Assembly: GCF_008727865.1 (NCBI RefSeq) | Contig: NZ_VTWU01000004.1 | Span: 496,001-560,000 of the forward strand | Reading direction: 5' to 3' | DNA length: 64,000 nt | From: Hymenobacter busanensis | GTDB taxonomy: Bacteria; Bacteroidota; Bacteroidia; Cytophagales; Hymenobacteraceae | In this document: positions 31,915 to 64,000 of the stretch, one piece after another | How positions within the stretch are numbered: the stretch's first letter is position 1 | How the letters are laid out: every line of letters starts with the position of its first letter | The notes under the pieces: generated by a model | Databases searched by the model: none | Told to the model about the DNA's origin: nothing | The model's input: the letters and a program-made list of their open reading frames with translations, nothing else | Made by a program: the position numbers and the translations under genes

Positions 31915-31996
31915 GCGCTTGTGGCGAAATTGGTAGACGCGCTGTCTTCAGGCGGCAGTTCCGAAAGGTGTGAGAGTTCGAGTCTCTCCGAGCGCA
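31915..31996 (+). tRNA. tRNA-Leu (anticodon CAG)
   Basis: The 82-nt gene folds fully: acceptor stem GCGCTTG (31915-31921) with CGAGCGC (31989-31995); D-arm with GGCGAAATTGGTAGACGC; anticodon stem CTGTC with GGCAG around loop TTCAGGC, giving CAG; a long class II variable arm; and T-arm GAGAG-TTCGAGT-CTCTC. The discriminator is A at 31996. CCA is not encoded (the following bases are CAA), so the 3' end must be added by CCA-adding enzyme. Confidence 0.96.
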
Positions 31997-32002
31997 CAAC
32001 CT

Positions 32003-47046: not shown

Positions 47047-48495
47047 ATGCAGCCGTCCCCCGTTGCCACGTCTACCCCGTCGGGCACACCGACCACCTCG
47101 CGCCTCGAACACGATTTCCTGGGTGAGCGGAGCATTTCCGACCAGTATTACTACGGCATCCAGACGCTGCGGGCGCTCGAAAACTTCACTATCACCGGCA
47201 TTCCGCTGCGCGCCGAGCCGCTGTTTGTGGAGGCGCTGGCCGACGTGAAAAAAGCCGCCGCCCTGGCCAACCGCGACCTGGGCGTGCTCGACCCCAAACT
47301 GGCCGGCTACATTGCCCAGGCCTGCGACCGGGTGGCTACCGGCGAGTTCGACAACCAGTTTCTGACCGACATGATTCAGGGCGGGGCCGGTACGTCGGTG
47401 AACATGAACGCCAACGAGGTTATTGCCAACGTGGCCCTGGAGCTGATGGGCCGCCGCAAGGGCGAGTACGACTTTTGCCACCCCAACAACCACGTCAACT
47501 GCTCGCAAAGCACCAACGACGCCTATCCCACGGCCTTTCGCATTGCGCTGAACAAGAAGCTGGTGGGTTACCGCGAGTCGCTGGCTATGCTGGCCGATTC
47601 CTTTGCCGCCAAAGGCGAGGAGTTTCGGAACGTGCTGAAAATGGGGCGCACGCAGCTGCAGGACGCCGTGCCCATGAGCATGGGCGACGAGTTTCACGCC
47701 TTCGCCACCAACCTGCGCGAGGAGCTGCTGCGCATCGACGACAGCCGCAACCTGATTCGCGAAATCAACATGGGCGCCACCGCCATCGGCACGCAGGTAA
47801 ACGCGCCCGACGGCTACGCCAACCTGGTGACCAAGTACCTGCGCGACATCACCGGCCTCGACCTGCTGCTGGCCGGCGACCTGATTGAAGCCACCTACGA
47901 CACCGGCGCCTACGTGCAGCTCTCGGGCGTGCTCAAGCGCACGGCCGTGAAGCTCTCCAAGATCTGCAACGACTTGCGCCTGCTTTCCTCGGGCCCGCGC
48001 GCCGGCTTGTTCGAAATCAACCTGCCGCCCTTGCAGCCCGGCTCCAGCATCATGCCCGGCAAGGTGAACCCCGTCGTGCCCGAGGTAGTCAACCAGACCG
48101 CGTTCTACGTCATCGGTGCCGACCTCACTGTGACCATGGCGGCCGAAGCCGGCCAACTGCAGCTGAACGTGATGGAGCCGGTCATCAGCTTTGCCCTCTT
48201 CACCAGCATCAGCTACATGACGCGTGCCTGCCACACGCTGCGCGAAAAGTGCGTGGTGGGCATCACCGCCAACGCCAAGCACGCCGAAGACATGGTGCGC
48301 AACAGCATCGGCATCGTCACGCAGCTCAACCCCGTGCTCGGCTACGAAACCACGGCTAGCATTGCCAAAGAGGCGCTGCAAACGGGCAAATCGGTCCACC
48401 AGATTGCGGTGGAAGAGCGGAAGCTGCTCACCGAAGCCAAGTGGAACGAGATTTTCACGTTCGAAAACCTGATTCGGCCGCACTTCATTCAGTAG
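47047..48495 (+). CDS. aspA: Aspartate ammonia-lyase
   Basis: A 482-residue fumarase/aspartase-superfamily enzyme that interconverts aspartate with fumarate and ammonia. It shows the superfamily signature GSSIMPGKVNPVVPEVVNQ (about 333-351), with the catalytic Ser loop, and MIQGGAGTSVNMNANEVIAN then HVNCSQSTNDAYPTAFRIAL (about 143-162). Length matches aspartase; the main alternative is class II fumarase, from which it is separated by these signature details only weakly. The start is the ATG at 47047 because the open frame above it runs back through the recR terminator. Confidence 0.9.
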   Translation: MQPSPVATSTPSGTPTTSRLEHDFLGERSISDQYYYGIQTLRALENFTITGIPLRAEPLFVEALADVKKAAALANRDLGVLDPKLAGYIAQACDRVATGEFDNQFLTDMIQGGAGTSVNMNANEVIANVALELMGRRKGEYDFCHPNNHVNCSQSTNDAYPTAFRIALNKKLVGYRESLAMLADSFAAKGEEFRNVLKMGRTQLQDAVPMSMGDEFHAFATNLREELLRIDDSRNLIREINMGATAIGTQVNAPDGYANLVTKYLRDITGLDLLLAGDLIEATYDTGAYVQLSGVLKRTAVKLSKICNDLRLLSSGPRAGLFEINLPPLQPGSSIMPGKVNPVVPEVVNQTAFYVIGADLTVTMAAEAGQLQLNVMEPVISFALFTSISYMTRACHTLREKCVVGITANAKHAEDMVRNSIGIVTQLNPVLGYETTASIAKEALQTGKSVHQIAVEERKLLTEAKWNEIFTFENLIRPHFIQ

Positions 48496-48514
48496 CGTTC
48501 AAGCAAACCGCCGA

Positions 48515-48555
48515 AGTAGTACTACGACTCCAAGTCGTAGTACCACTATCGTTGC
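48515..48555. repeat. REP-like hairpin, copy 1 (matches the RAYT-flanking copy)
   Basis: A palindrome with 15-bp arms (48515-48529, 48533-48547; one G-T pair) and loop CCA, followed by ATCGTTGC. The arm core is TACTACGACT, and the foot reads GTAG just before it. The same 41 nt occur at 63442-63482 with one base changed in the foot (GTGG). Confidence 0.88.
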
Positions 48556-48682
48556 TGGCGTTGGGCGGTCCAGGCCACCAGCGTACGAGCACCACTCCGT
48601 TGCTGCGGAGGTTGCACAGGCGAAATGGGGTGAGGGTTTCGTTGCGTAACTTTCGCAGCCCCTCGCGCTCCTGATTTTGCCC

Positions 48683-50665
48683 GTGCCCGCTTCTGCCGTC
48701 AAGCTTTCCGTCGTCATCGTCAACTACAACGTCTGCTACTTTCTGGAGCAGACCTTGCTGTCGGTGCGGCGGGCGGTGGAAAAGCTGGGTGCCCCGGCCG
48801 AGGTGTGGGTGGTCGACAACAACTCCGTCGACGGCTCGGTGGCGATGGTGCGGGAGCGGTTTCCCGAGGTGCGCCTGATTGCCAACCGCGACAACCCGGG
48901 TTTCTCGAAGGCCAACAACCAAGCCATTCGTGAATCGCGAGGCGAGCATGTGCTGCTGCTGAACCCCGATACGGTGGTGGAAGAAGATACCTTCCGCCTG
49001 TGCTGCGCGTTTATGGACGCGCACCCCGATTGCGGCGGCCTAGGCGTGAAAATGCTCGACGGCCAGGGCAAGTTTCTGCCCGAGAGCAAGCGCGGGCTGC
49101 CCACGCCGTGGGTGGCGTTCTACAAGGTGTTCGGGCTGGCGGCGCTGTTTCCCAAGTCGCGCACCTTCGGCCGCTACCACCTCGGCTTCCTCGACAACGA
49201 CCAGACCCACGAGATTGAGGTGCTCAGCGGCGCGTTCATGCTCATGCGCCGCGCCGCTTTAAACCAGGTCGGCTTGCTCGACGAAGATTACTTCATGTAC
49301 GGCGAGGATATCGACCTCTCGTACCGGCTCACCCAGGGCGGCTGGAAAAACTACTACTTCCCCGGCACCCGCATCATTCACTACAAGGGCGAAAGCACCA
49401 AGCGCACGAGCGTGAACTACGTGTTCGTGTTCTACCGCGCCATGGTCATTTTCGCCCGCAAGCACTTTGCGCCGCAGCGGGCCGGGTGGTTTGCGCTGCT
49501 GATTAACGGCGCCATCTGGTTTCGGGCGGGCGTGGCGGTGGTGCGCCGCTTCTGGGACCAGGCCTGGCCGGTGCTGCTCGATGCGCTCATCATTTTCGCG
49601 GGCATGTACTTCCTCAAGCACTATTGGGAAGTCAACCACAAGTTTGTGCGCACGGCCTATCCGCCGCAGTACATGCTGGTGGCGGTGCCGGCCTACATTG
49701 CCATTTGGCTGGGCAGCGCCTGGCTCAGCGGCGCCTACGACGACCCGCCCAAAACCGCCCGCCTCGTGCGCGGCGTGGCCGTGGGCACCATCCTCATTTC
49801 GGCCGTTTCCAACTTCCTCGACGCCTGGCGCTTCTCCAAGGCGCTCATTGTGCTCGGCGGCGGCTGGGCCATTGTGGCCATGGTGGCGCGGCGCCTGCTC
49901 ACGCACTTCCTGCGCTACCGCGACCTGAACCTCTCGGAGCGGCGCCAGAAAAACATTGCCATTGTCGGCTCGCCGGCCGAAAGCCGCCGCGTGCGCGCCC
50001 TGCTGGAGCAAGCCGCCGTGCAGGCCCGCATCATCGGCTACGTGAGCCCCGGCCCCGTGCCCGCCGGTGAGGCCGACGACCAGCTCGGCGAAGTGCGCCA
50101 GCTCGACGAAATCCTGCGCATCTACGCCATCGACGAGCTGATTTTCTGCGGCAAAGACCTCTCTGCCAACCGCATCATTTCGCTGATGGTGGACGAGCAG
50201 GAGCGGTTTCCCCACGTAGCCTTCAAAATTCTGCCCGAAGACAGCCAGTACATCATCGGCTCGTCTTCGAAAGATTCGCCCGGCGACTACTACGCCCTCG
50301 ACATCGAGTTGAACCTCTACAAGCCCCAGCAGCGCCGCAACAAGCGCATTCTGGACGTGCTGCTGAGCCTGGGCCTGCTGGCAGCTGCGCCGCTGCTCAT
50401 CTGGCCGATCGATAGGAAAGCCGGCTTCTTCGGCAACGCGCTCAACGTGCTATTGGGCCGGCGCACCTGGGTAGGCCTGCGCCACACCACCACGCCCGAG
50501 CGCGCCCCTCGTGCTGTGCTGTCGCCCGCCGACCACGTGGCAGCCAACACGCCGCTGACCGAGGCAACGCGCCGCCGCTTGGAAGTGCTCTACGCTAAGG
50601 ATTACGAGCCGGCCACCGATTTTGCGCTGGTGCTGCGCAACCTGCGCCGGCTGGGGCAGGAGTAA
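48683..50665 (+). CDS. Glycosyltransferase family 2 fused to a degenerate sugar-phosphate transferase
   Basis: A 660-residue protein. Residues 1-250 are a GT2 domain: LSVVIVNYNVCYFLEQTL, VVDNNSVDG, the metal motif LLLNPDTVVEED and FMYGEDIDLSYRLTQGGW, typical of rhamnosyl/undecaprenyl-linked transferases. About five helices follow (about 255-415), then a nucleotide-fold segment (NIAIVGSPAESRRVRALLEQ). The end (about 535-655) keeps scattered pieces of the initiating polyprenyl glycosylphosphotransferase (NKRILDVLLSLGLLAAAPLL; LLGRRTWVGLR; ending DYEPATDFALVLRNL) but has lost its central RxG..G..F..KFRSM block, so it is probably inactive. The start is GTG 48683 or TTG 48677. Confidence 0.85.
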   Translation: MPASAVKLSVVIVNYNVCYFLEQTLLSVRRAVEKLGAPAEVWVVDNNSVDGSVAMVRERFPEVRLIANRDNPGFSKANNQAIRESRGEHVLLLNPDTVVEEDTFRLCCAFMDAHPDCGGLGVKMLDGQGKFLPESKRGLPTPWVAFYKVFGLAALFPKSRTFGRYHLGFLDNDQTHEIEVLSGAFMLMRRAALNQVGLLDEDYFMYGEDIDLSYRLTQGGWKNYYFPGTRIIHYKGESTKRTSVNYVFVFYRAMVIFARKHFAPQRAGWFALLINGAIWFRAGVAVVRRFWDQAWPVLLDALIIFAGMYFLKHYWEVNHKFVRTAYPPQYMLVAVPAYIAIWLGSAWLSGAYDDPPKTARLVRGVAVGTILISAVSNFLDAWRFSKALIVLGGGWAIVAMVARRLLTHFLRYRDLNLSERRQKNIAIVGSPAESRRVRALLEQAAVQARIIGYVSPGPVPAGEADDQLGEVRQLDEILRIYAIDELIFCGKDLSANRIISLMVDEQERFPHVAFKILPEDSQYIIGSSSKDSPGDYYALDIELNLYKPQQRRNKRILDVLLSLGLLAAAPLLIWPIDRKAGFFGNALNVLLGRRTWVGLRHTTTPERAPRAVLSPADHVAANTPLTEATRRRLEVLYAKDYEPATDFALVLRNLRRLGQE

Positions 50666-50682
50666 TAGATAAAAGAATACTG

Positions 50683-51309
50683 GTGAAAAAAGAACTGCGT
50701 AATATTTTATTGGATGCCCTTGCGGTAGACATGAGTGCGCAAGGCTACGTTCTTAATAAGTCTCGCGCTGAATTTACTAAGCGAAGCTCTGACGGATGGA
50801 ATAAATTTCAATTGTTATTCTTAGATCGGGCAACACACTGGGAAATAGTACCAGGACTGCTAATTCGCAAAAATCAAGTCGAAGACATATACCACAAGGC
50901 TTCATATTACGAGAAGAATTATCAGAAATTCACGCCTACTATTGGTATTTTGGTTGAGAACTATACAGGTACAAGCATTGATAGTCGGCGGGAATTAAGA
51001 AAGCCAACTGATGTAGAGCCTTGTATTGGTGAGTTGCTACAACAGTTTAATGCAGTGGCTTTGCCTTTCTATGAGAGGTTTGCTAGTATAAAGGTGCTCG
51101 AGTCAGAAATAAACGATCAAAATTCAAGTGGTTCATTGATAACCGGCCCAATTAGAAAAGGTAGTTTGGGGGTTATTCTGGCTTCACTTGTAAATAATCC
51201 CGATTACGAGATGTTGAAAGAGAAGTATCGTGAATATTATAATCGTTTCAGTGAAGGATTTTACCTGCGTGAGTATGAGGGTGTATTAAAGGTTTTGGAG
51301 AGTAGTTAA
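50683..51309 (+). CDS. AT-rich orphan, DUF4304-like
   Basis: A 208-residue soluble protein (MKKELRNILLDALAVDMSAQ; EFTKRSSDGWNKFQLLFLDR; YEKNYQKFTPTIGILVENYT). The N-terminal pattern of helix then FxKxxxxGWNxFQ resembles DUF4304 proteins, whose function is unknown. Its codon use is strikingly AT-rich against both neighbours. The start is a GTG, 17 bp after the glycosyltransferase stop on the same strand, so it may be transcribed with it. It was probably acquired recently; no toxin or immunity motif recognised, although small DUF4304-like proteins often act as immunity partners. Confidence 0.75.
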   Translation: MKKELRNILLDALAVDMSAQGYVLNKSRAEFTKRSSDGWNKFQLLFLDRATHWEIVPGLLIRKNQVEDIYHKASYYEKNYQKFTPTIGILVENYTGTSIDSRRELRKPTDVEPCIGELLQQFNAVALPFYERFASIKVLESEINDQNSSGSLITGPIRKGSLGVILASLVNNPDYEMLKEKYREYYNRFSEGFYLREYEGVLKVLESS

Positions 51310-51392
51310 AAATGGTGACAAGCTTGAACGAATGTTGAAGGACAAGCTATGAAATATAATTCATGCTTATAGGATGGCGCGTCGGTACTGTG

Positions 51393-51425
51393 TTGCCTTG
51401 GTCCGCCGGCATCTGCGTATTTTTG
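51393..51425 (+). promoter_or_regulatory. Promoter of the aminotransferase gene
   Basis: TATTTTTG (51418-51425) is an exact -7 element, with TTG at 51393-51395 or 51398-51400 (22 or 17 bp spacing). It lies 44 bp before the ATG at 51470. Confidence 0.65.
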
Positions 51426-51469
51426 CAGTCTTTCCCCTCTGTTTCCCCAACCCAGCCCTGTTTCCCCTT

Positions 51470-52690
51470 ATGTCTACCGCTGCCGCGCTTGCCCCGTTGG
51501 TTCTTTCCGACCGCATCAATGCCATGCAGGAGTCCCAAACCATTGGCATGGCCAAAAAGGCCCGCGAGCTGGCGGCCCAGGGCATCGACGTTATCAGCCT
51601 GAGCTTCGGCGAGCCTGATTTTCAGACTCCGCAGTACATCAAGGACGCCGCCAAGAAGGCCCTCGACGAAGGCTACACTTTCTACACACCCGTGCCCGGC
51701 TACCCCGAGCTGCGCCAGGCCATTGCCGACAAGCTCAAGCGCGAAAACCACCTCGACTACAAGCCCGAAAACATTGTGGTGAGCACCGGCGCCAAGCAAG
51801 CCCTGGCCAACGCCGTGCTCAGCCTCGTGAACCCCGGCGACGAGGTCATCATTTTTTCGCCCTACTGGGTGAGCTACGAGGAGATGGTACGCCTGGCCGA
51901 AGGCGTTACGGTGCGCCTCGTCGGTTCGCTCGAAAACGACTACAAAGTGACGGCCGCGCAGCTGGCCGAGGCCATTACGCCCCGCACCAAACTGGTCATG
52001 TACTCGTCGCCGTGCAACCCCACGGGCGCGGTATGGTCGCGGGAGGAACTGGCGGCCATAGCCGAAGTGGTGGCCCAGCACCCGCAGGTATACGTGTTGG
52101 CCGACGAGATTTACGAGTACATTAACTTCGTGGGCGAGCATGCCAGCCTGGCCCAGTTTGATGTCGTGAAAGACCAGGTCATCACCGTCAACGGCTTCTC
52201 CAAAGGCTACGCCATGACGGGCTGGCGCATCGGTTACCTGGCGGCCCGCAAAGAAATTGCGGCCGCCTGCGAGAAGATGCAAAGCCAGATTACCTCGGCC
52301 ACGTGCTCCATTACGCAGCGCGCCGGTTTAGCCGCGTTGCAGGGCGGCCGCAGCTCGGCCGACGAAATGGTAACCGCCTACCGCCGCCGCCGCGACCTGG
52401 TGCTGGGCATCGTGAAAGACATTCCCGGTCTGAAAACGCCCACGCCCGACGGCGCCTTCTACATCTTCCCCGACGTGTCGGCCTACTTCGGCAAAACCAC
52501 GCCCAGCGGCGACACCATTCAGAACGCCAACGACCTGGCCATGTACCTGCTCAACGACGGCCACGTGGCAGCCGTCGACGGTGCCGCGTTCGGCGCGCCG
52601 CAGTGCCTGCGCTTCAGCACCGCCGCCGCCGACGAGAAGCTCACCGAGGCTTTCCGCCGCATCAAAGTGAGCCTCGCCAAGCTGGTGTAG
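51470..52690 (+). CDS. Pyridoxal-phosphate aspartate/aromatic aminotransferase
   Basis: A 406-residue class I/II aminotransferase of the prokaryotic aspartate type. The PLP lysine lies in TVNGFSKGYAMTGWRIGYLA (Lys about 241). Family elements include VISLSFGEPDFQTP, ENIVVSTGAKQALANAVLSL, MYSSPCNPTGAVWS (about 179-192) and ADEIYEYINF. It probably makes or degrades aspartate, with broad specificity possible. The start MSTAAALAPLVLSDRINAMQ is supported by the promoter; an upstream in-frame extension covers the promoter and is rejected. Confidence 0.93.
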   Translation: MSTAAALAPLVLSDRINAMQESQTIGMAKKARELAAQGIDVISLSFGEPDFQTPQYIKDAAKKALDEGYTFYTPVPGYPELRQAIADKLKRENHLDYKPENIVVSTGAKQALANAVLSLVNPGDEVIIFSPYWVSYEEMVRLAEGVTVRLVGSLENDYKVTAAQLAEAITPRTKLVMYSSPCNPTGAVWSREELAAIAEVVAQHPQVYVLADEIYEYINFVGEHASLAQFDVVKDQVITVNGFSKGYAMTGWRIGYLAARKEIAAACEKMQSQITSATCSITQRAGLAALQGGRSSADEMVTAYRRRRDLVLGIVKDIPGLKTPTPDGAFYIFPDVSAYFGKTTPSGDTIQNANDLAMYLLNDGHVAAVDGAAFGAPQCLRFSTAAADEKLTEAFRRIKVSLAKLV

Positions 52691-52721
52691 AAACCTGCTC
52701 GTGTTCGAGCACAAGTAGAAC

Positions 52722-52830
52722 GTCATGCTGAGCGCAGCCGAAGCATCTCGCGTGTTTAGCTGGATTGTAAACTCTTCGTTGAACGAGGGAAGACCAGCAC
52801 GCGAGATGCTTCGCTTACGCTCAGCATGAC
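52722..52830. repeat. Palindromic intergenic repeat, GTCATGCTGAGC family (copy D)
   Basis: Arms of 33 bp (52722-52754 and 52798-52830), nearly perfect, begin GTCATGCTGAGCGCA and contain GAAGCATCTCGCGTG. The loop is 43 nt. It fills most of the gap between the aminotransferase and YfiT-like genes. Confidence 0.88.
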
Positions 52831-52866
52831 GCCTGTATAAGCCGTTCTATTCGTTCTTTTGCCGCT

Positions 52867-53406
52867 ATGAACGAGCCCACCGACGAGCACCTGCGCTTTC
52901 CCATCGGCCGCGTGCAGCTGCCCGAGCAGCCGCTTTCCGCCGCTGAGCGCGCGGTCTACATTCAGCAGATTGCCGACTTGCCCGCGCAACTCACGGCCGC
53001 GGCCCGCGCCGCCGGCGGCGTACAACTGGAACAGCCTTACCGCCCCGGCGGCTGGAACGGCCGGCAGGTAATCCATCACCTGGCCGACATGCACCCGCTG
53101 CTCTACGCCCGCTTCCGGCAGGCCCTGACCGAGGACGAACCCACCGTGCCCGTGTTTCAGGAAAGCGCCTGGGCCGAGCTGCCCGACGTAGCCGCCACGC
53201 CCGTTACGGTGTCGTTGGCGCTGCTGGAGCAGGTGCACACGCGTTGGGTAGTGTTGATGCACCACCTGAGCGAGGCCCAGTGGCAGCGTCGCTTGTACCA
53301 TCCGCGGTTGCAGCGCTGGTTCACGCTCGACCAGGCCTTGGTGCAGTACGCCTGGCACGGTCGGCACCACCTCGGGCACATCAAGCTACTCGCAACGGGC
53401 AACTGA
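52867..53406 (+). CDS. DinB-superfamily YfiT-like metal-dependent protein
   Basis: A 179-residue four-helix DinB/YfiT protein. Family signatures are YRPGGWNGRQVIHHLADMHPLLYARF (split, about 58-83), LTEDEPTVPVFQESAWAELPD and the final WHGRHHLGHIKLL, whose His residues complete a metal site with the earlier His. YfiT relatives are thiol transferases or hydrolases; bacillithiol S-transferase is the best-studied type, but the thiol used here is unknown. It lies between a repeat element and the sugar kinase. Confidence 0.88.
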   Translation: MNEPTDEHLRFPIGRVQLPEQPLSAAERAVYIQQIADLPAQLTAAARAAGGVQLEQPYRPGGWNGRQVIHHLADMHPLLYARFRQALTEDEPTVPVFQESAWAELPDVAATPVTVSLALLEQVHTRWVVLMHHLSEAQWQRRLYHPRLQRWFTLDQALVQYAWHGRHHLGHIKLLATGN

Positions 53407-53410
53407 CAAT

Positions 53411-53418
53411 TACCTTTG
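53411..53418 (+). promoter_or_regulatory. -7 promoter element (TACCTTTG) of the kinase gene
   Basis: An exact TAnnTTTG, 26 bp before the chosen ATG at 53445 and just after the YfiT-like stop. No TTG at -33 was found. Confidence 0.55.
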
Positions 53419-53444
53419 CAGCCTTTCCTGCTCAGAACCCCGCA

Positions 53445-54452
53445 ATGCCCGCTGCTCCGCCCGCGCCCTCCACGCTGCCCGAACTTTTTGCCGCTTTCAA
53501 CCGCCTGACCGTGCTCATCGTGGGCGACGTGATGGTGGACGCCTACGTGTGGGGCCGCGCCGCCCGCCTTTCGCCCGAAGCGCCGGTGCCCGTGGTGAAC
53601 GTGACGCGCACCGAGCAGCGCCTCGGCGGGGCAGCCAACGTGGCCCTCAACATCCAAGCCCTGGGCGCCACGCCGCTGCTGTGCGCCGTCATCGGCACCG
53701 ATGCCGGCGGCGACCAACTCCTGCACGAGCTGCATCAGCGCCAGCTTTCCGCCGACGGCCTCGTGCGCAGCGACGAGCGGCCGACCACCGTCAAGCAGCG
53801 CATTCTGGCCCACGGCCAGCAGCTACTGCGCATCGACTCGGAAGTGGAAACCGACCTGAGCGCCACGGAAGACGCCACGCTGAGCGAGGCCTACGAGCAA
53901 CTGCTCGACCGCGCCGACGTGGTTATTTTCGAAGACTACGACAAGGGCGTGCTCAATGCCGACCGCATCGGCCGCTTCATTGCGCTGGCGCGGCAAAAGG
54001 GCATTCCCACCGTTGTCGACCCCAAAAAGCGCAACTTTCTGGCCTACCGCGGCTGCACGCTCTTCAAGCCCAACCTGAAAGAGCTGCGCGAAGGCCTGAA
54101 GCTGGAATTTGCCGACGGCGACAACGCCGGCCTTGAGCACGCCGTGCAGCAGCTGCGCACGCACCTCTCGCCCGACATGGTGCTCGTCACGCTCTCCGAG
54201 CGCGGCGTGTTCTGCGACGCCGCTACTGGCCCCATCTACCTGCCCGCTCACGTGCGCGCCATTTCCGACGTATCGGGCGCCGGCGACACCGTTATCAGCA
54301 TTGCTGCCCTGTGCGTGGCGCTAAATCTGGCCCCGGCCGCAATGGCCGGGCTGGCCAACCTGGGTGGCGGCCTCGTGTGCGAGCAAGTGGGCGTGGTGCC
54401 CATCGAGAAACAGCTCCTGCTCGCCGAAGCCGAAGCCGCCGAGGTGCTGTAA
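53445..54452 (+). CDS. PfkB-family sugar kinase, RfaE1-like
   Basis: A 335-residue ribokinase-family enzyme resembling the kinase half of HldE/RfaE. Features are LIVGDVMVDAYVWGRAARLS (about 23-42), the substrate-lid QRLGGAANVALNIQALGAT (about 59-77), VVIFEDYDKGVLN, the PfkB block VVDPKKRNFLAYRG then FKPNLKELREGL, and the anion hole/base DVSGAGDTVISIAAL (about 275-289). It probably phosphorylates D-glycero-D-manno-heptose 7-phosphate for LPS or a related sugar; the cytidylyltransferase half is absent. The start lies 26 bp after a -7 element. Confidence 0.88.
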   Translation: MPAAPPAPSTLPELFAAFNRLTVLIVGDVMVDAYVWGRAARLSPEAPVPVVNVTRTEQRLGGAANVALNIQALGATPLLCAVIGTDAGGDQLLHELHQRQLSADGLVRSDERPTTVKQRILAHGQQLLRIDSEVETDLSATEDATLSEAYEQLLDRADVVIFEDYDKGVLNADRIGRFIALARQKGIPTVVDPKKRNFLAYRGCTLFKPNLKELREGLKLEFADGDNAGLEHAVQQLRTHLSPDMVLVTLSERGVFCDAATGPIYLPAHVRAISDVSGAGDTVISIAALCVALNLAPAAMAGLANLGGGLVCEQVGVVPIEKQLLLAEAEAAEVL

Positions 54453-54465
54453 GCTGAAAATGCCT

Positions 54466-54567
54466 GTCATCCTGAGCTAAAAGCGAAGGACTTTCTCCTT
54501 GTTGAATGAGTCGTTGTTACGAGCTTCGTTCAGCGGTGAAAAGGTCCTTCGCTCTGCTCAGGATGAC
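54466..54567. repeat. Palindromic intergenic repeat, GTCATCCTGAGC family (copy C)
   Basis: The left arm (54466-54499) and right arm (54533-54567) pair imperfectly. The right arm, ending GCTCTGCTCAGGATGAC, is nearly identical to copy B, including the preceding TTCGTTCAGCGGTGA. It lies between the convergent kinase and hemE genes. Confidence 0.85.
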
Positions 54568-54578
54568 AGTTTTGTATG

Positions 54579-55625
54579 CTAGCCCAAATCCTGGCGCATG
54601 CGCAGGCTGTGCTCTTTCACCGTCTCGATGAACACCTTCACGCGGTCGGGGTTGGTGTCGGGGTACACGCCGTGGCCGAGGTTGGCAATGTGGCGCTGCG
54701 GGCCGAAGCGCTCCAGCATGGCAACGGTGGCGGCGCGCACCTGCTCGGGCGAACCGTAGAGGGCGCAGGGGTCGAGGTTGCCCTGCAGGGTTTTGTCGCC
54801 CACGAGCTGGCGCACGTGGCGCGGGTCTTCGTTCCAGTCGAGGCCGATGGTGCGGCAGGGCATCTGGGCGAAATCCTGGTGGGCGAAGAAGGCGCCTTTG
54901 GCAAACACCGTCACGGGGGTATCGGCGGGCATGGCCGCACAGATTTCCTGGATGTAGCGGGCCGAAAACTCGTGGTAGTGCTCGGGGTTCAGAATGCCGG
55001 CCCACGAATCAAATACCTGCACCAGGTTGGCGCCGGCCTCGATTTGGGCGCGCAGGTAGGCAATGGTGGTGTCGGTGATTTTGCGCAGCAGGCGGTGGGC
55101 CAGCTCGGGGTCCTGAAACAGCATCCGCCGCGCTTTGGAGAAGGTCTTGGAGCCGTGGCCTTCCACCATGTAAGCCAGAATCGTCCAGGGCGCGCCGGCA
55201 AACCCGATGAGCGGCACGCGGCCGCCCAGGGCGCGCTTGGTGACGCGGATGGCGTCGAGCACGTAGCCGAGGTGCTCGTGCGGATCGGCCACGCGCAGGC
55301 GGTCTACGTCGGCAGCCGACTGCACGGTTTGGGGAAACAGCGGGCCGCGGGCTTCCACCATTTCGTAGGTCAGGCCCATGGCTTCGGGCACCACCAGAAT
55401 GTCGGAGAAGATGATGGCCGCGTCGACGTCCAGCGCGTCGATGGGCTGGATAGTGACTTCGGCTGCCAGATCGGGCGTTTCCACCAGCTCCTTGAAGCCG
55501 CTCAGCTTGGCGCGCAGGGCGCGGTACTCGGGCAGAATGCGGCCGGCCTGGCGCATGAGCCACACGGGCGTCCGTTCGGTTTGTTCGCCGCGCGCGGCGC
55601 GGAGCAGGAGGTCGTTTTTGAGCAT
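54579..55625 (-). CDS. hemE: Uroporphyrinogen decarboxylase
   Basis: A 348-residue enzyme decarboxylating uroporphyrinogen III to coproporphyrinogen III in heme synthesis. The N-terminal signature is [20 protein letters not shown] (about 18-37, with the conserved RQAGR), and the second pattern is [16 protein letters not shown] (about 140-155). Later blocks are [13 protein letters not shown] and [12 protein letters not shown]. Length is normal. A -7 element lies about 20 bp upstream. It is convergent with the kinase gene across a repeat element. Confidence 0.95.
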
Positions 55626-55645
55626 GGGGAGCGGGCTAGAGGCGG

Positions 55646-55653
55646 CAAAGGTA
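55646..55653 (-). promoter_or_regulatory. -7 promoter element (TACCTTTG) of hemE
   Basis: On the minus strand this is an exact TAnnTTTG, 20 bp before the hemE ATG. No -33 TTG at suitable spacing was seen. Confidence 0.5.
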
Positions 55654-55691
55654 CAATTGCTGGCTTTGCGGTGCAGCAGGCGCGGTCCGTG

Positions 55692-56318
55692 CTACTGCGT
55701 CAGTCCCGGAAACAGCGCCTTGATGGCCGTGGCCAAGAAATTCACCCCAATGGCAAGCGTGATGAAGCCCATGATGCGCGCCAGCGCCGCCATGCCCGGC
55801 CGGCCCAGAAACCGCGTCAACCGCAGCGACGACATCAGAATCAGGTAGGCGGCCAGCGCCACCAGCACGAAGCCCAAAAACGTCATGCCCATGCTCAGGT
55901 ACGAGGGCCGCTCGGTGAACAGGCCGATGCACACGGCCATGGAGCCGGGGCCCGAGAGCATGGGCATGGCCAGCGGCGTGAAGCTGATGTCGTCTTTGTG
56001 CATGCTTTCCTCCAGCGTGGCGTCCGATACTTTGGCGCGGTTGCCGCCCGGCGTGAGCAAATCGAAGGCCGAGCGCATGAGCAGAATGCCGCCCGCAATG
56101 CGCAGGTGGTGGATGTTGATGCCGAAGAAGTTGAGAATGTACTGCCCCGCGAAAAACGACACCGCCAGCACGCCCACCATGTAGATGCACGCCCGCAGCG
56201 CGGTGGCGGCCCGGCCGCTGGCCGTGTCGTGCTCCGTGAGCGTGAGAAACACCGGCATGGCCCCGAAGGGGTTGACAACGGAGAAGAGTGTGGTGAACGT
56301 GGCGAGCAGAATTTCCAT
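55692..56318 (-). CDS. MarC family integral membrane protein
   Basis: A 208-residue protein with six hydrophobic segments. The first contains TLFSVVNPFGAMPVFLTLTE (about 9-28), and the paired MarC signature later reads PLAMPMLSGPGSMAVCIGLF (about 116-135). The family was once linked to multiple antibiotic resistance, but that role has not held up; substrate and function are unknown. A -7 element lies 22 bp upstream and it is 66 bp before hemE on the same strand. Confidence 0.92.
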   Translation of the reverse strand: MEILLATFTTLFSVVNPFGAMPVFLTLTEHDTASGRAATALRACIYMVGVLAVSFFAGQYILNFFGINIHHLRIAGGILLMRSAFDLLTPGGNRAKVSDATLEESMHKDDISFTPLAMPMLSGPGSMAVCIGLFTERPSYLSMGMTFLGFVLVALAAYLILMSSLRLTRFLGRPGMAALARIMGFITLAIGVNFLATAIKALFPGLTQ

Positions 56319-56340
56319 GCGCGGGCAAGTGGGGAGCGGC

Positions 56341-56348
56341 CAAAGGTA
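56341..56348 (-). promoter_or_regulatory. -7 promoter element (TACCTTTG) of marC
   Basis: An exact TAnnTTTG on the minus strand, 22 bp before the marC-type gene's ATG, in the short region shared with the divergent purE promoter. Confidence 0.5.
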
Positions 56349-56383
56349 GGATTTGGGCGCATACGGAGTGCGCCGAAATTGGC

Positions 56384-56391
56384 TATGTTTG
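56384..56391 (+). promoter_or_regulatory. -7 promoter element (TATGTTTG) of purE
   Basis: An exact TAnnTTTG on the plus strand, 65 bp before the purE ATG. No well-spaced -33 was found. Confidence 0.5.
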
Positions 56392-56456
56392 GCCGCGGCC
56401 TCGTATGTAGTCAGGCCGAGGCAGCCGCCCTATTGCGCGGCCGCTCCACCTTCCCT

Positions 56457-57005
56457 ATGACGACCACTCCTCCCGACTCCGCCACCCCGGACCCCGCCGC
56501 CACGCCCATTGTGGGCATCATTATGGGCGGCCAATCGGACCTGCGTGTGATGAACGCCGCGGCCGAGATGCTGCGCCAGTTTCAGGTGCCCTACGAACTC
56601 ACCCTGGTGTCGCCGCACCGCACGCCGCACCGCTTGGTGGAGTACGCCGAATCGGCCCGCAAGCGCGGCCTGCGCGTGCTCATTGCCGGTGGAGGCGGGG
56701 CCGCCCACCTGCCGGGCATGGCCGCGGCCTTCACCACCATTCCCGTCATCGGGGTGCCCATCAACGTGCCCACCAGCATCGGCGGGCTCGATTCCATCTT
56801 GTCGATGCTGCAAATGCCTACCGGTGTGCCCGTAGCCACGGTAGCCGTGGATGGCGCCGCCAACGCGGCCGTGCTGGCCGTGCAGATGCTGGCCCTCGGC
56901 AACGCCCGGCTTGCCGATGCCCTGGAGAAATACCGCGGGGCCCTGCGCGACAAGGTGATGCGCACCGTCGACGAGCTGCGCAAGGGCGGCCTCGACGACA
57001 TATAG
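56457..57005 (+). CDS. purE: N5-carboxyaminoimidazole ribonucleotide mutase PurE
   Basis: A 182-residue class I PurE of purine synthesis. Motifs are IIMGGQSDLRVMNAAAEML (the GSxSD phosphate-binding loop with Gly-Gly-Gln here), LVSPHRTPHRLVEYAES with the catalytic His, and AGGGGAAHLPGMAAAFTTIP with the second active-site His. An N-terminal proline/threonine lead (about 16 residues) is unusual but short. Length is otherwise typical. purK is not in the window. Confidence 0.94.
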   Translation: MTTTPPDSATPDPAATPIVGIIMGGQSDLRVMNAAAEMLRQFQVPYELTLVSPHRTPHRLVEYAESARKRGLRVLIAGGGGAAHLPGMAAAFTTIPVIGVPINVPTSIGGLDSILSMLQMPTGVPVATVAVDGAANAAVLAVQMLALGNARLADALEKYRGALRDKVMRTVDELRKGGLDDI

Positions 57006-57102
57006 CCGCCCGGGAATTATGGGGAGGGTACAATTGGGAGGTTGGCATTCAGCCGTTTCAGCCGCTGATTGCAACCAACTCGGCAAGGAGTAGTACAAGC
57101 CA

Positions 57103-58293
57103 TTGATTTCCCCTCTCTCCGCCCTTTCCGTGCTGCTGCAACTCTCTTCTTTACTTACGAACCTGCTCGTGGGGCTGACGTGGCTACTGGGCGTGGCGGT
57201 GGTAGTGGCCACGCTGCTGCCGCTGCTGCGCCAAACCGCGTGGTGGATCCGCGTGTTCGACTTCCCCCGCCTGCAAATTGTGGGCGTGGCCGTCGTGTCG
57301 CTGTCGGGGGCGCTGGGCCTGCGCTTCTGGGACCAGAACTGGGCCTGGCGGCTGCTGCTGCTCACGCAGGCGGCCGTGATTGTCTACCAGATAGCGCGCA
57401 TTCTGCCCTACACGCGCCTCGTGCGCAAGCAGGTGGGCGACTCAACCCTGAAAGACGGGCGGCGCCACCTGAGCCTAGCCATGATGAACGTGCTGCAGTT
57501 CAACCGCCAAGGCGCCCGGGCGCTGCAGGTGCTCCAGCAAGCCGACCCCGACATCATCATGGCCGTGGAAACCGACGACTGGTGGTACCAGCAGCTCAAG
57601 CCGCTGGAAACCACGCATCCTTACGTGTGCCACGAGCCGCTCGACAACACCTACGGCCTGCTGTTTTTTTCGCGCCTGCCGCTGGAAAACTTCGTCATCA
57701 AGTATTTGCTCGACGACGACGTGCCCAGCCTGCACACCCGCGTTCAGCTACCCGACGGCCGCACCTGGGTGCGGCTCTACGGCCTGCACCCCAAACCACC
57801 GGCACCGGCCGAATCCAAAACCAGCACCAAGCGCGACGCTGAGCTGCTATTGGTGGGCAAGGAAATCGACCGCAACGAAGAGCCGACCATTGTGTTTGGC
57901 GACATGAACGACGTGGCCTGGTCGCACACCTCCGAGCTGTTTCGGCGCATCAGCGGCCTGATGGACCCGCGCGTGGGCCGCGGCCTGCTGCCCACCTTCC
58001 ACGCCGATTACTCCCTGTTGCGCTGGCCTCTGGACCACGTCTTCGTTTCGGCCCACTTCAAGGTCGACGACATGGAGCGGCTGCCCTACGTCGGCTCCGA
58101 CCACTTTCCCATCTACATCAAGCTCAGCTACGAGCCCCACGACAAGGAAGTGCAGGAAGAAAACAGCGAGGAGGCCGACTTCGAAGACCACAAAGAAGCC
58201 CTGGAGAAAATAAAAGAGGGCTTTGAGGAGGAAAACGAAGAAGAGCAGGAGGAGGCCACCGACCCCGAGCCCAAGAAGGTGTTGACTACGTAA
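57103..58293 (+). CDS. Membrane-anchored endonuclease/exonuclease/phosphatase protein
   Basis: A 396-residue protein with three N-terminal hydrophobic segments (LLVGLTWLLGVAVVVATLLP; IVGVAVVSLSGALGLRF; AWRLLLLTQAAVIVYQIARI) and a soluble EEP domain at about 125-345. There MNVLQFN and DIIMAVETDDWW hold the first metal residues, and VFGDMNDVAW (Asp, Asn), WPLDHVFVS and VGSDHFPIYI give the remaining catalytic Asp/His. It may hydrolyse phosphodiesters outside the inner membrane. The last 50 residues are a highly acidic tail (EENSEEADFEDHKEALEKIK onward). The best start is TTG, as no ATG precedes the first helix. Confidence 0.87.
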   Translation: MISPLSALSVLLQLSSLLTNLLVGLTWLLGVAVVVATLLPLLRQTAWWIRVFDFPRLQIVGVAVVSLSGALGLRFWDQNWAWRLLLLTQAAVIVYQIARILPYTRLVRKQVGDSTLKDGRRHLSLAMMNVLQFNRQGARALQVLQQADPDIIMAVETDDWWYQQLKPLETTHPYVCHEPLDNTYGLLFFSRLPLENFVIKYLLDDDVPSLHTRVQLPDGRTWVRLYGLHPKPPAPAESKTSTKRDAELLLVGKEIDRNEEPTIVFGDMNDVAWSHTSELFRRISGLMDPRVGRGLLPTFHADYSLLRWPLDHVFVSAHFKVDDMERLPYVGSDHFPIYIKLSYEPHDKEVQEENSEEADFEDHKEALEKIKEGFEEENEEEQEEATDPEPKKVLTT

Positions 58294-58309
58294 AGCCGTG
58301 TTTCCGGCG

Positions 58310-59452
58310 CTACTCGCCTTCGTATAAAAACGCCATCTGCCGCTCGTTCACGCGGGCCGGCACGCGGCGCATCACCGCGTCGCGCAGCTGTATAAGCAGG
58401 CGGTTTTCGAGTTGGGCCGCTTTGCCCAGTTGCCACGACTGGTTGACGATGCGCGTGGTGCGCGGCCGGCGGCGCTGGTCAAACGCCTGAAATGCCGCCA
58501 CGGGGTCGGCGTTTTCCGCCAGGCAGCGGGCCAGCATGGCGGCATCTTCTACGGCTTGCCCTGCTCCCTGGCCCATGTTGGGCGTGGTAGCATGGGCGGC
58601 GTCGCCGAGCAGCAGCACCCGGCCAAAGGCAAACCGGCGCAACGGCTTCAGGTCGATGATGTCGCCCCACAGCAGCTGGTCCTCGTGGGTGAGGGATAGG
58701 AGCGCGGGAATGGGGGCGTGGAAGTCGGCAAACCGGCGTTGCACGTCGGCCAGGCGCCAGCCCCGAAACACGGGGTTGTTGGGCACGGCGCTGTTCACGC
58801 AAGCAAACCAATACACCTGTCCGTTGGCCAGCGGCACGCAGCCGAAGCGCCCGGCCGAACCCCAGCTTTCGGTGGAGCGGCCAGCCGGCAACCCCAGTGC
58901 CCGGGCATCGACGACGCCGCGCCAGCATGTGTACCCCGCAAAGCGCGGCTGCGCCTCGGGCAGCAGCTGCCGCCGCACACCCGACCGAATGCCATCGGCC
59001 CCGATCAGCGCGTCGGCGGTGCCGGTGCTGCCGTCGGTGAAATGGGCCGTGACGCGGCCGTTGTGCTCCTCGAACCGCTCGAATCGTTTGCCTAGCTGCA
59101 AGGTGCAGGGCGGCAGCTGCTGGAGCAGTACGCGCTGCAGATCGGCGCGGTGAATGGCGAGGTTATCGTAGCCGAGACGCCGGGTAAACGGTGCCGTGTC
59201 GACATCGTTGAGCACGCGGCCGTGCTGGTCTAGCAGGCTGATGTGGGTAACGGGGTGCCCCGCGGCCCGCACGGGCGCGTGCACTCCCAGGTGGTCGAGG
59301 CTGCGCATGGCGTTGGCGCCCAGCACTACGCCCGCCCCAATTTCGCGCAGCTCGGCAGCGGCCTCATACACGTGGGCGCTATGCCCTTGCTGCAACAGCG
59401 CCCGGGCCGTAGCTAACCCGCCGATACCGCCGCCAATGATGATAAATTCCAT
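58310..59452 (-). CDS. FAD-dependent monooxygenase
   Basis: A 380-residue flavoprotein of the UbiH/aromatic hydroxylase group. The dinucleotide fold is at the extreme N-terminus, MEFIIIGGGIGGLATARALL (GxGxxG), followed by the DG motif ALIGADGIRSGVRRQLL (about 155-171) and the GD motif VLLLGDAAHATTPNMGQGAG (about 279-298). It should hydroxylate or epoxidise a small substrate using NAD(P)H; the substrate is unreadable. The start at 59452 places the FAD motif correctly; the 22 extra in-frame codons upstream are rejected. Confidence 0.92.
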   Translation of the reverse strand: MEFIIIGGGIGGLATARALLQQGHSAHVYEAAAELREIGAGVVLGANAMRSLDHLGVHAPVRAAGHPVTHISLLDQHGRVLNDVDTAPFTRRLGYDNLAIHRADLQRVLLQQLPPCTLQLGKRFERFEEHNGRVTAHFTDGSTGTADALIGADGIRSGVRRQLLPEAQPRFAGYTCWRGVVDARALGLPAGRSTESWGSAGRFGCVPLANGQVYWFACVNSAVPNNPVFRGWRLADVQRRFADFHAPIPALLSLTHEDQLLWGDIIDLKPLRRFAFGRVLLLGDAAHATTPNMGQGAGQAVEDAAMLARCLAENADPVAAFQAFDQRRRPRTTRIVNQSWQLGKAAQLENRLLIQLRDAVMRRVPARVNERQMAFLYEGE

Positions 59453-59719
59453 GCGTGTGCAAACGAGCCGCCGGTTTCCGCCGCACGGGCAGTTCCACGG
59501 GCCGGTTTGCGGCGGCAACTTAGACCCGGAAAGTGAAACCTGCTACCACATCTTGGGGTGAGCGGGCTGCGAGCGAACGAAAAGGCAGCCAAAACGACTT
59601 TCTCAAAATAGGATGGAAAAGCGACTGGGTTTCCAGATTTGGGAAACCAATTGCTGAACTTATCGGCCTCTGCAGGCGGTTTGCAGCTGGTAATGAGTTG
59701 TTGCCTCCGTCAATAGAAT

Positions 59720-60397
59720 ATGATTTTTCTTTCCGCATTGCTTGTCGCACCGCTGCTCTGCGCGGACCCCGTTACCGACCGCGTGTTCAAGCCCGAACTG
59801 CTGCCAGCCAAGGCGGCCCGGCCCATGGCGTTTGTGCCGGCCGGCTGGATGCTGGAGCGCCAGGCCGCCGGCGACCTGAACGCCGACAAACGCCCCGACC
59901 AAGTGCTGCTGCTTGTAGAACGCCCTTCGGCGGCGCCCGATGCCAAGCGGGAGCGGGCCGTGGTGGTGCTGCTGGCCGAGCCCACGGGGCAGTTTCGGCG
60001 GGTAGGGGCCGCCGGGGCCGTGTTGCCCTGCGTGGGCTGCGACGAAACCGCCGCCGGCACCGACGGCGTGCCCGAACTCGCCATCAGCAAAGGGCAGGTG
60101 AGCCTGCGCCACATTGCCGGCAATGCCCAAACCACCGACCGCACGCTGCGCTTCCGCTACGAGTCCACTGCCGACCGCGTGCGCCTCGTGGGCGAAGACC
60201 ACATCCGCAGCAGCCGCCAGGTGCTGGATACCACCGTGCGCCACACCGATTTCCTGACTGGCCAGCAGCAAACCGAACGCATTTACGCCGACCCCAAAGC
60301 CCAGGGCAGCACCCGCCAGCTCACCTCGCGCAGCACGGCCACCGTGCCCACCGCGCCGCGCTATCTGGAAGACCTAAACCTAAATACCCTGCTCTAA
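59720..60397 (+). CDS. Exported protein of a tandem-duplicated pair (intact copy)
   Basis: A 225-residue protein with a short signal (MIFLSALLVAPLLC). Its body holds FVPAGWMLERQAAGDLNADK then RPDQVLLLVER, which recalls FG-GAP/integrin-like units, plus a cysteine pair (VLPCVGC), RFRYESTADRVRLVGED and DFLTGQQQTERIY. The next gene is a clear paralog with the same order of motifs. Function unknown; probably a secreted or periplasmic beta-rich protein. Confidence 0.8.
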   Translation: MIFLSALLVAPLLCADPVTDRVFKPELLPAKAARPMAFVPAGWMLERQAAGDLNADKRPDQVLLLVERPSAAPDAKRERAVVVLLAEPTGQFRRVGAAGAVLPCVGCDETAAGTDGVPELAISKGQVSLRHIAGNAQTTDRTLRFRYESTADRVRLVGEDHIRSSRQVLDTTVRHTDFLTGQQQTERIYADPKAQGSTRQLTSRSTATVPTAPRYLEDLNLNTLL

Positions 60398-60426
60398 ACG
60401 CTCCTTTCCGCTCACAGACAAGCTGG

Positions 60427-60455
60427 AAAAGCCGGGACTCTGTTCCGGCTTTTTT
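60427..60455 (+). terminator. Terminator between the two paralogs
   Basis: AAAAGCCGG (60427-60435) pairs with CCGGCTTTT, followed by a T-run to 60454. It lies 30 bp after the intact paralog's stop. Confidence 0.8.
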
Positions 60456-60496
60456 GCGTCCGGTGGTTTTTGGGCACGGGTGTACCTTGCGCCGCT

Positions 60497-61200
60497 ATGC
60501 TTCGTTGCTTCTGGTTTCTGCTGTTGCTTTTTTCCGCCAGCGGGCTGACCGCGCAGCCCGCCACGCCCCCCCTGCTCGACCCCAAACGGGTGCCGCTGAC
60601 CGCGAAAAAGCCCGCCGATTTTGTGCCGGCGGGCTGGCAGCTGGAGCAACAGCTCAGCGGCAACCTGAACGCTGATGCGCGCCCCGACCGCGTGCTGATG
60701 CTCGTGGAAAAAGCCACCATCAACGATAACTCAGTCGACCGCAACCGTGCGCTGCTGGTGCTCTTGGCGCAACCGGACGGCTCGTTGAAACGCGTCGGTG
60801 TCGGCCCGAAGGCACTGTATTGCACGGGCTGTTTTGGCGCCCTAGCCGGCCCTGAAGGCGGTACGCCCGAACTTAGCTTCGACCGCGGCAGCCTGCTGGT
60901 GGAGCACATGGCGGGCTCGCGTTTTATGACGGTGCAAACGCAGCGCTTCCGCTACGAAACGGCCAGTGGCCGCGGCGGCTCATCGGCGAAGAGTACAGCA
61001 ACACCGACCGGGCCAGAGGGCTTAGCACGCACGCCAGCACCAACTTTCTCACCGGTCAGCAGCAAATCAGCAAAGGCAGAATGGACAGCGAGAAAAGCCA
61101 ACGGATAACGCGCCGCACGGTGAAAACGCCGAAGCTGTATCTGGAAGATGTAAACGCGCAGGGCGAGACGCCGTGGTTGCCGGCCGACTTCTTTGATTGA
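60497..61200 (+). pseudogene. Second paralog, broken by a one-base frameshift
   Basis: It opens with a signal peptide (MLRCFWFLLLLFSASGLTAQ) and aligns with the intact copy: FVPAGWQLEQQLSGNLNADA, YCTGCFG (cysteine pair), RFRYETASGR. After about position 60,973 the frame runs into GC-rich nonsense up to a stop at 61108. One base further along, the other frame continues the homology as RLIGEEYSNTDRARGL, NFLTGQQQISKGRM and LYLEDVNAQGETPWLPADF to TGA at 61198-61200. Restoring one missing base (likely the T of a Trp codon near 60,973) would rejoin them. It is either a real pseudogene or a sequencing error in GCGGCGG. Confidence 0.82.
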
Positions 61201-61226
61201 TTCTTCCTGCGAATAACCCCTGATGC

Positions 61227-61261
61227 AAAAAAGGCCCGAAGCTCACGCTCCGGGCCTTTTT
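61227..61261. terminator. Bidirectional terminator between the paralog and dnaK
   Basis: AAAAAAGGCCCG (61227-61238) pairs with CGGGCCTTTTT (61251-61261), giving T-runs on both strands. It serves the convergent paralog and dnaK. Confidence 0.85.
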
Positions 61262-61281
61262 ACTGTTCGACTAGCCGCGAA

Positions 61282-63234
<1,953 letters not shown>

Positions 63235-63441
63235 GAGTATGTTCGTAGGTAGAGTGAGGTGTCTTGTTTAGGTGGCAGCTTGCGGCTGTTGCGGGGTGGT
63301 TTACAAGACGCGTACCAGCCCGCCAAACGCCGTTTTTTGCTGCCAGAATGTCACCGCCCGGCAGAAGCCGCAGCGGTGTTTCTGCCGGAAGCGGTTGTAC
63401 GGAAGATGGAGCCGGACAGATATTCAGGCGACGCAGGCCGG

Positions 63442-63482
63442 AGTGGTACTACGACTCCAAGTCGTAGTACCACTATCGTTGC
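63442..63482. repeat. REP-like hairpin, copy 2, directly behind the RAYT gene
   Basis: Perfect 15-bp arms (63442-63456 and 63460-63474) with loop CCA, then ATCGTTGC. The foot tetranucleotide is GTGG, before arm core TACTACGACT. It lies 18 bp from the stop codon of the transposase (63493). It matches copy 1 at 48515 except for one foot base. The surrounding 258-bp gap to dnaK is otherwise empty. Confidence 0.92.
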
Positions 63483-63492
63483 ACGACAGCCC

Positions 63493-64000
63493 TTAGAACA
63501 ACCAGTCCTTTACATCCGCTGGCATAGTCTGCTTAATAAGCAAGGCTATTTGCTCCGCATCGGTTGGCAAATCGAGCAACGCCGTTGCCAGCTCTTTGTG
63601 GCATAATGTACCACCACGCAACCCCGCGTAATCCGGATACGACGACCACACCCATTGGCTTATATCACGTATCAGGCCCGCTCGAAGCGGATTCTGGTGA
63701 ATATAGCAGAAGCACATAAAGGCGTACTGCTCCGTTGATAATTCCTTCGCTTTCGTGTGCTGCTGGAACAACGAACCCGTACGGCCCTGCTCTTTTTGAA
63801 TAGCGCGGGTGTATGAGCTTAGCAGAAGCCGGAGGTCGGTGCTACAACGTGCCAGGTCGGCGGCTTCGCGCACTTGCACCAGCAGATGAAAGTGGTTTGG
63901 CATGAGACACCACGCCAAAATGCGCAGGTGTGGGGTGAGGTGGCGGCGGAGCTTGGTGAGAAAGTAGCGGTAATTCTCCGGCGTGTGAAATACCGTTTCG
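63493..64000 (-). CDS. REP-associated tyrosine transposase (RAYT), partial
   Basis: A Y1-type HUH transposase of the TnpA_REP family that acts on single-stranded REP hairpins. The visible 168 residues lack the N-terminus, which lies beyond the window. Reading continues upstream of the first internal start as ETVFHTPENYRYFLTKL, which is standard RAYT sequence. The HUH motif is MPNHFHLLVQV, the catalytic Tyr lies in LLLSSYTRAIQKEQGRTGSL, and the end has YIHQNPLRAGLI and WVWSSYPDY. A REP hairpin follows directly, forming a likely REPtron. Confidence 0.9.
   Translation of the reverse strand, partial: ETVFHTPENYRYFLTKLRRHLTPHLRILAWCLMPNHFHLLVQVREAADLARCSTDLRLLLSSYTRAIQKEQGRTGSLFQQHTKAKELSTEQYAFMCFCYIHQNPLRAGLIRDISQWVWSSYPDYAGLRGGTLCHKELATALLDLPTDAEQIALLIKQTMPADVKDWLF

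Follow-up and report, generated by a model that had tools for sequence, protein, structure and literature searches.

A gene for a Y1 HuH transposase at the end of the analysed DNA stands between two inverted hairpins, and together they form a REP-RAYT-REP unit of ~710 bp, with gene-facing tails TATCGTTG..., that probably moves with its ends. The comparison with related genomes suggests that the gene travelled in one piece with its hairpins. We prefer this reading because the stems covary, the hairpins go with one clade of transposases, their dispersal is mainly intergenic, the tails lie inside, and the places of the unit differ between genomes. REP-RAYT is an already known kind of system, of which the present one is a Bacteroidota variant. 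The window, i.e. the whole analysed stretch of 64,000 nucleotides, corresponds to C6:496001-560000 of the Hymenobacter busanensis genome (G000; 4.89 Mb, 11 contigs).

The transposase gene and its flanking hairpins

In window numbering, the features are as follows.

63442..63474, plus strand: REP hairpin 3' of RAYT1, 15 pairs and a 3-nt loop; R1 match C6:559440-559486, 69.7 bits
63475..63482, plus strand: tail ATCGTTGC (with the T before it, TATCGTTGC), facing the RAYT1 gene
63493..64000, continuing to 64062 beyond the window, minus strand: RAYT1, Y1 HuH tyrosine transposase with an HFH motif and the Tyr in YIHQNP
64104-64152 (C6:560104-560152), past the window end, inverted: second flanking hairpin, on the 5' side of RAYT1
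48515..48547, plus strand: solitary dispersed REP hairpin, 19 nt past the aspA stop, with GTAG, not GTGG, at the stem base
48548..48555, plus strand: tail ATCGTTGC of the solitary copy

R1 is a covariance model of 25 hairpins, 15 from G000 and 10 from beside the RAYTs of five named Hymenobacter.

The minus-strand ORF of RAYT1 overruns the window end by 62 nt and its full product has 189 residues. A preliminary description of the window had taken the partial protein for a RAYT, and the profile searches bear this out. RAYT1 matches Pfam PF01797 (Y1_Tnp) with 30.9 bits, above the cut-off of 23, and a PDB search with a profile of its lineage matches a single chain, 4er8 TnpArep (E = 2.3e-4). The full protein also matches NCBIfam NF047646 (REP-associated tyrosine transposase; 72.3 bits, E = 3.7e-20), albeit under the curated cut-off of 80, and four RAYT1 relatives score 63.7-75.9 bits with this profile. 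Judged by its sequence, RAYT1 is a RAYT relative outside NCBI's line. Residues H57, H59 and Y120 (L042 numbering) are invariant across 28 sequences. Of the named species, H. gummosus and H. jeollabukensis carry the nearest RAYTs, and the second of them is genome G002 (flanking ORFs identical).

On the plus strand, 63442-63474 reads A-GTGGTACTACGACTCCAAGTCGTAGTACCAC-T and forms a 33-nt hairpin, separated from the RAYT1 stop codon by 18 nt (63475-63492). The hairpin with its GTGG foot was thus correctly placed in the preliminary description, which regarded it as the REP of this transposase; it does adjoin the gene, but there are actually two, inverted, one on each side. RAYT1 is bracketed by these mirror-image hairpins with both tails TATCGTTGC turned to the gene, and the hydrolase-like ORF next door (named by eye) takes its final codons from the 5' hairpin. 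The second copy that had been reported after aspA, including its 8-nt flank, is likewise present at 48515 and has the tail ATCGTTGC in common with the first. It differs from the RAYT1 hairpin at 1 of 40 positions, and the two matches compare with a mean of 0.00 in 100 shuffles. As single-stranded DNA, the 63442 hairpin folds at -16.0 kcal/mol on both strands (z = -6.8 and -8.0) and the 48515 copy at -11.1 kcal/mol (z = -5.2).

The unit stands at different chromosomal places

RAYT1 belongs to a clade of seven RAYTs (the GTGG clade), from G000, H. gummosus, H. jeollabukensis, H. montanus, H. sp. ASUV-10, H. actinosclerus and G035. By comparison of neighbouring genes, the seven stand at five places. 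Within the genus set of eight genomes, RAYT1 is found in G000 and G002 only.

The G000 unit lies between dnaK and the hydrolase gene. Upstream of dnaK, it is absent in all seven genus relatives: the hydrolase is directly next to dnaK in G003 and G006, it lies further away with other sequence between in G001, G002, G004 and G007, and G005 has no hydrolase match in the stretch compared. On the dnaK side, similarity stops ~14 nt ahead of the near hairpin in G001, G002 and G005, 17 nt ahead in G006, and ~86 nt ahead in G003, G004 and G007; on the hydrolase side it restarts 24-53 nt past the far hairpin.

In H. gummosus and H. jeollabukensis, the unit adjoins thiL (named by eye), with another gene on its far side. 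The same place lacks the unit in G000, G001, G004, G005, G006 and G007, where mostly a terminator-like hairpin is seen by eye, and G003 has a different upstream neighbour at thiL. The H. jeollabukensis breakpoints lie 2-7 nt and 10-17 nt from the hairpins. Elsewhere, none of the neighbour genes at the G000, H. montanus and H. actinosclerus loci recurs at another of the loci compared; one neighbour is common to ASUV-10 and G035 and has relatives, on the other strand, beside the sister-clade loci L134, L137 and L138. No target rule for the places of the unit was found. The different places may also reflect independent gains by transfer, or rearrangement, and the edges of the unit are blurred.

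Transfer and rearrangement are central to the strongest alternative, an ordinary domesticated RAYT: a host gene, passed on by inheritance, that disperses REPINs in trans and whose places differ through interspecies transfer and rearrangement. It would accord with published accounts, in whose available text RAYTs are single-copy and vertically inherited (PMC8049555) and 'there is no evidence of tnpAREP mobility' (PMC8266576), and with the single RAYT1 match in each of G000 and G002. It would also accord with the CCGG sister clade, where two groups of loci (L128, L129, L132, L133 and L135; L134, L137 and L138) share neighbour genes, i.e. the gene stays put. However, the seven RAYTs of the GTGG clade are found at five places, and at two of these there are relatives without the unit whose edges fall at or near the hairpins. 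We consider this alternative possible but rather doubtful. The word 'domesticated' in the preliminary description is itself questionable, because the place of the unit differs among related species and places without it exist.

The hairpins go with one RAYT clade

R1 hairpins lie beside the RAYT in all seven members of the GTGG clade (15 of the 56 sources searched), and none was found in the remaining 41 sources at E up to 0.05. Six of the seven clade genomes had contributed hairpins to R1; G035 was left out of the model, and its flanking hairpins score 20-29 bits. In five of the seven, R1 hairpins flank the gene on both sides. In H. montanus and ASUV-10, R1 matches only a pair upstream of the gene; downstream, half a hairpin can be seen by eye, and the tails have diverged. 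H. gummosus and H. jeollabukensis have an additional weaker hairpin between the left hairpin and the gene.

In a survey of 204 genomes of the family, a RAYT1 relative occurs in 46 (E up to 1e-10) and an R1 match in 44 (E up to 0.001, both strands counted; values of 29 mean at least 29). G035 has a single R1 match at this threshold, yet its RAYT is 57% identical to RAYT1; it has a second RAYT of 51% identity, with no locus among those searched. Five genomes (G001, G005, G029, G081 and G092) are orphans in the sense that they contain 19-29 R1 matches, 29 being a lower bound, and no RAYT1 match at E up to 1e-10. Copies therefore persist or spread without the cognate gene.

These hairpin-rich orphans also contain 16 other RAYT matches, with some in all five genomes, and so leave room for another transposase, e.g. 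the second RAYT of G000 (RAYT2) or an orphan-genome RAYT, to have moved the hairpins, RAYT1 merely lying between two of them. We regard this as improbable. RAYT2 (C6:59128-59595, L027:5087-5611; NF047646 96.8 bits, over the cut-off) has its own GTAG-type hairpin, GTAGGCGTCACTCGGCACAGCCGAGCGACTGC, with three core copies adjoining the gene, and there is no R1 match at its locus. The RAYT2 core also occurs once at the locus of a G029 RAYT (L229), and a search of the window with the RAYT2 hairpin at up to 3 mismatches gave 0 matches. Among the RAYT loci searched, R1 hairpins flank the RAYT1 clade only, and they are found at 0 of the 10 orphan-genome RAYTs whose locus was searched. Further, at least 10 R1 matches occur in 5 of the 6 genomes with a RAYT1 of at least 55% identity versus 5 of the 198 others, a comparison that is partly circular.

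A search of 44 of the 75 more distant RAYT loci (L047-L121) gave 3 weak R1 matches in two loci (E = 0.0096-0.015). By eye, a tip resembling ACT-N3-AGT, as in the G000 hairpin, recurs in the flanking palindromes of several of these distant RAYTs. An inverted repeat between upstream and downstream flank is present at 46 of 78 RAYT loci versus 2 of 78 in a mismatched control; the 78 are those of 80 loci with enough flank, each flank being taken with 30-60 nt of gene edge, and the repeats are not all confirmed hairpins. H. montanus is one of the 32 loci without such a repeat.

The foot is part of the stem and the tail adjoins it

The preliminary description treated GTAG and GTGG as two foot types. 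GTGG stands in 14 of 16 copies, the other two having GTAG and neither sequence, respectively. However, GTGG pairs with CCAC in the stem (GTGG...CCAC, a 'double foot'), and the GTAG at 48516 results from one base change that breaks a stem pair. GTAG was thus dropped as a foot type of its own and is regarded as a point variant. The available text of PMC3733652 describes GTAG repeats, mutated to GTGG in one family.

The stems seem to be kept by pairing, as judged from paired changes in the 25 hairpins and from differences within an orthologous REPIN. In the 25 hairpins, 6 of 14 pairs have changed on both sides and 96.9% of cells pair; the covariation score is 0.237 versus 0.122 in shuffles (0 of 500 as high), although 11 of the 25 rows had been found by a palindrome pattern. 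Independent of those rows, the stems of one REPIN orthologous in G000, G001 and G002 show paired C/G differences.

The tail motif TATCGTTGCTGATG occurs with up to 4 mismatches at 15 of 38 flanks versus 5.3 expected from mononucleotide shuffles (L123 repeats L043). With 0-2 mismatches it is found at the stem base in G000, L042, L043 (and L123), L128, L129 and L135, and in none of L044-L046, L127, L130-L134 and L136-L138. Inside the GTGG clade, the foot is therefore steadier than the tail.

The sister clade has a different stem. At nine of its 11 loci (L128-L138) the palindromes adjoining the RAYT are of CCGG type; those of L130 and L131 are different (labels by eye). In a tree of 25 proteins, one change parts the GTGG from the CCGG rows (support 98/93), and L130 and L131, unlabelled in the tree, fall on the CCGG side. 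At three of the sister loci an inner tail resembles TATCGTTG, and TATCGTTGCTGATG stands directly at the CCGG stem with 0-1 changes (L128, L129) or 2 changes (L135). Part of the lineage therefore shares the tail while stem and foot differ.

Dispersed copies and inverted pairs

The repeat, of which the preliminary description knew two copies, is widespread in G000. Of the outcomes that this description named as refuting, a genome total of just two copies and the lack of a RAYT profile match are both contradicted. A palindrome pattern with up to 3 mismatches finds 12 places in the genome (0 in a reversed control) and a stem-plus-tail pattern gives 14 matches (control, 0). With E up to 0.01 and both strands counted, R1 gives 39 matches, and those listed, which reach down to near E = 3e-5, fall at 20 or more distinct places. 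The question raised earlier, whether copies are intergenic, can be answered with our home-made gene caller, whose coding share in the window is 0.78: in G000, 14 of 20 places lie between genes, and in G002, 12 of the 16 examined do, i.e. 26 of 36 against an expected fraction of 0.22 (p about 2e-10). Some of the 10 others merely touch the end of a called ORF and three are deep inside. These three (G000 C7:50253, G002 C12:149361 and G002 C7:111221) lie in long ORFs that are left open.

Among the matches listed, which cover 136 distinct places in 19 genomes, there are 25 close pairs (<150 nt) in 10 genomes, one of them in G000 (C7:543836). All 25 have the hairpins outside and the tails inside, with 4-54 nt between model ends. 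They consist of two inverted REPs a short distance apart, as REPINs do, and share their hairpins-out, tails-in layout with the hairpins that bracket RAYT1. In the 24 pairs read (23 of the 25 and one more from G001), the inner ends TATCGTTGAACGA and TATCGTTGCTGATG recur, often one of each; two pairs of G023 and one of G133 depart from both. Some copies are old: G000 and G001 have several at the same place, as do G001 and G002, and one is common to these three genomes.

It is very improbable that the hairpins never moved and serve the host as signals for transcription or mRNA stability, lying close to the RAYT by chance: 14 of the 36 examined copies are within 30 nt of a predicted gene 3' end, and the aspA copy stands where all seven genus relatives lack it and have other sequence with different, by eye terminator-like hairpins, but neither window hairpin has a terminator-like site, pair orientation is fixed, three copies are deep inside ORFs, and one G002 REPIN is absent at the corresponding place in G000. 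The preliminary description suggested that the hairpins could affect transcript ends; a terminator reading of the window hairpins was dropped as there is no terminator-like site near either, and the window region 48000-64000 has no Rfam match at gathering scores.

Separately, window positions 31915-31997 are a tRNA-Leu (cag); the window has no R1-type hairpin there, and G001 and G002 have one ~10 nt from the matching region.

Proposed mechanism and relation to known systems

Layout and comparison lead us to propose that RAYT1 would recognise a hairpin with its adjoining tail on single-stranded DNA and would cut near the outer base of the hairpin. The DNA moved would be its own gene, flanked by two hairpins, or, in trans, gene-less pairs, which would be MITE-like. 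A hairpin that stands alone, like that after aspA, would be one half of a decayed pair. On the strand with the tail 5' of the hairpin (5'-CAACGATA-stem-3'), the tail stands where known REPs have GTAG, which the available text of PMC8266576 describes as the guide in REP cleavage; for its position, the tail is proposed to act as guide here.

A more far-reaching version, which we put forward tentatively, is that Hymenobacter-type bacteria retain a living ancestral REPIN state: REP-RAYT-REP would still transpose as a unit, the gene-less pairs would be its MITEs, the tail 5'-CAACGATA would replace the GTAG guide, and stem and foot would have been exchanged between clades. REPINs have been proposed to descend from REPs flanking an ancestral autonomous element (PMC3116915, in the text available). 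This version is weakened because two of the seven clade members have a remnant downstream hairpin and diverged tails.

Similar to TnpAREP/RAYT with its REPtron in E. coli, Stenotrophomonas and Marinomonas, the present system has a Y1 HuH protein, REP hairpins on both sides, mainly intergenic dispersed copies, single and in inverted pairs, and a RAYT with its own hairpin type. Unlike in those systems, GTGG lies within the stem on both sides, the stem has 14-15 bp, the tail TATCGTTG stands between hairpin and gene, and the place of the unit differs among related species.

Comparison with described RAYT subclasses relies on the accessible portions of the sources. Subclass 2.6 of Quentin et al. 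2018 (Bertels group 5, Bacteroidetes) is alike in its Bacteroidota hosts, Tyr motif YIHQNP, copies elsewhere in the genome and, for the sister clade, hairpins without GT[AG]G. Of its three motifs as given in the portion of PMC6006769 available, NH[LIV]H, WQ and YIH[QN]NP, RAYT1 with NHFH, FQ and YIHQNP has one; unlike in subclass 2.6, the GTGG-clade hairpin does start with GTGG. Subclass 2.4 (Bertels group 4), which includes Bacteroidetes, is alike in the 'double foot' REP GTGG...CCAC, one of its two REP types as there described, whereas RAYT1 has YIHQNP for its YIxNNP and R1 finds no hairpin within the gene. The REPINs of Pseudomonas fluorescens, as the available text of Bertels and Rainey 2011 presents them, are alike in having two inverted REPs with a short spacer and a MITE-like character; unlike there, the gene-between-hairpins layout persists here and appears to have moved.

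In the text available, PMC8266576 and PMC6006769 report no evidence for RAYT or REPtron movement. A unit that moves with its ends, which would fit the sequence comparisons made here, is contrary to that view. No paper linking Hymenobacter with REP sequences was found in the open-access literature. The general questions are by what route REPs spread and whether a RAYT gene can itself change place. Around the GTGG clade there are cultured relatives with and without the unit at a given place, sister RAYTs that combine a like tail with another stem, and genomes that have the hairpins and lack a close RAYT; recognition (stem or tail), gene movement and the fate of hairpins after gene loss are therefore directly testable.

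Further observations on individual units

The H. jeollabukensis RAYT (L043:3001-3580 = L123) has an internal TAG ~16 codons ahead of the frame end, possibly a sign of decay. The downstream hairpin in L044 and L045 looks cut off by other sequence with a similar start (GGCTTCGCCG). Just beyond the hairpin feet of the H. gummosus unit (L042:2850-3660), its outer flanks are inverted repeats of each other as well (CGCGAA ... TTCGCG).
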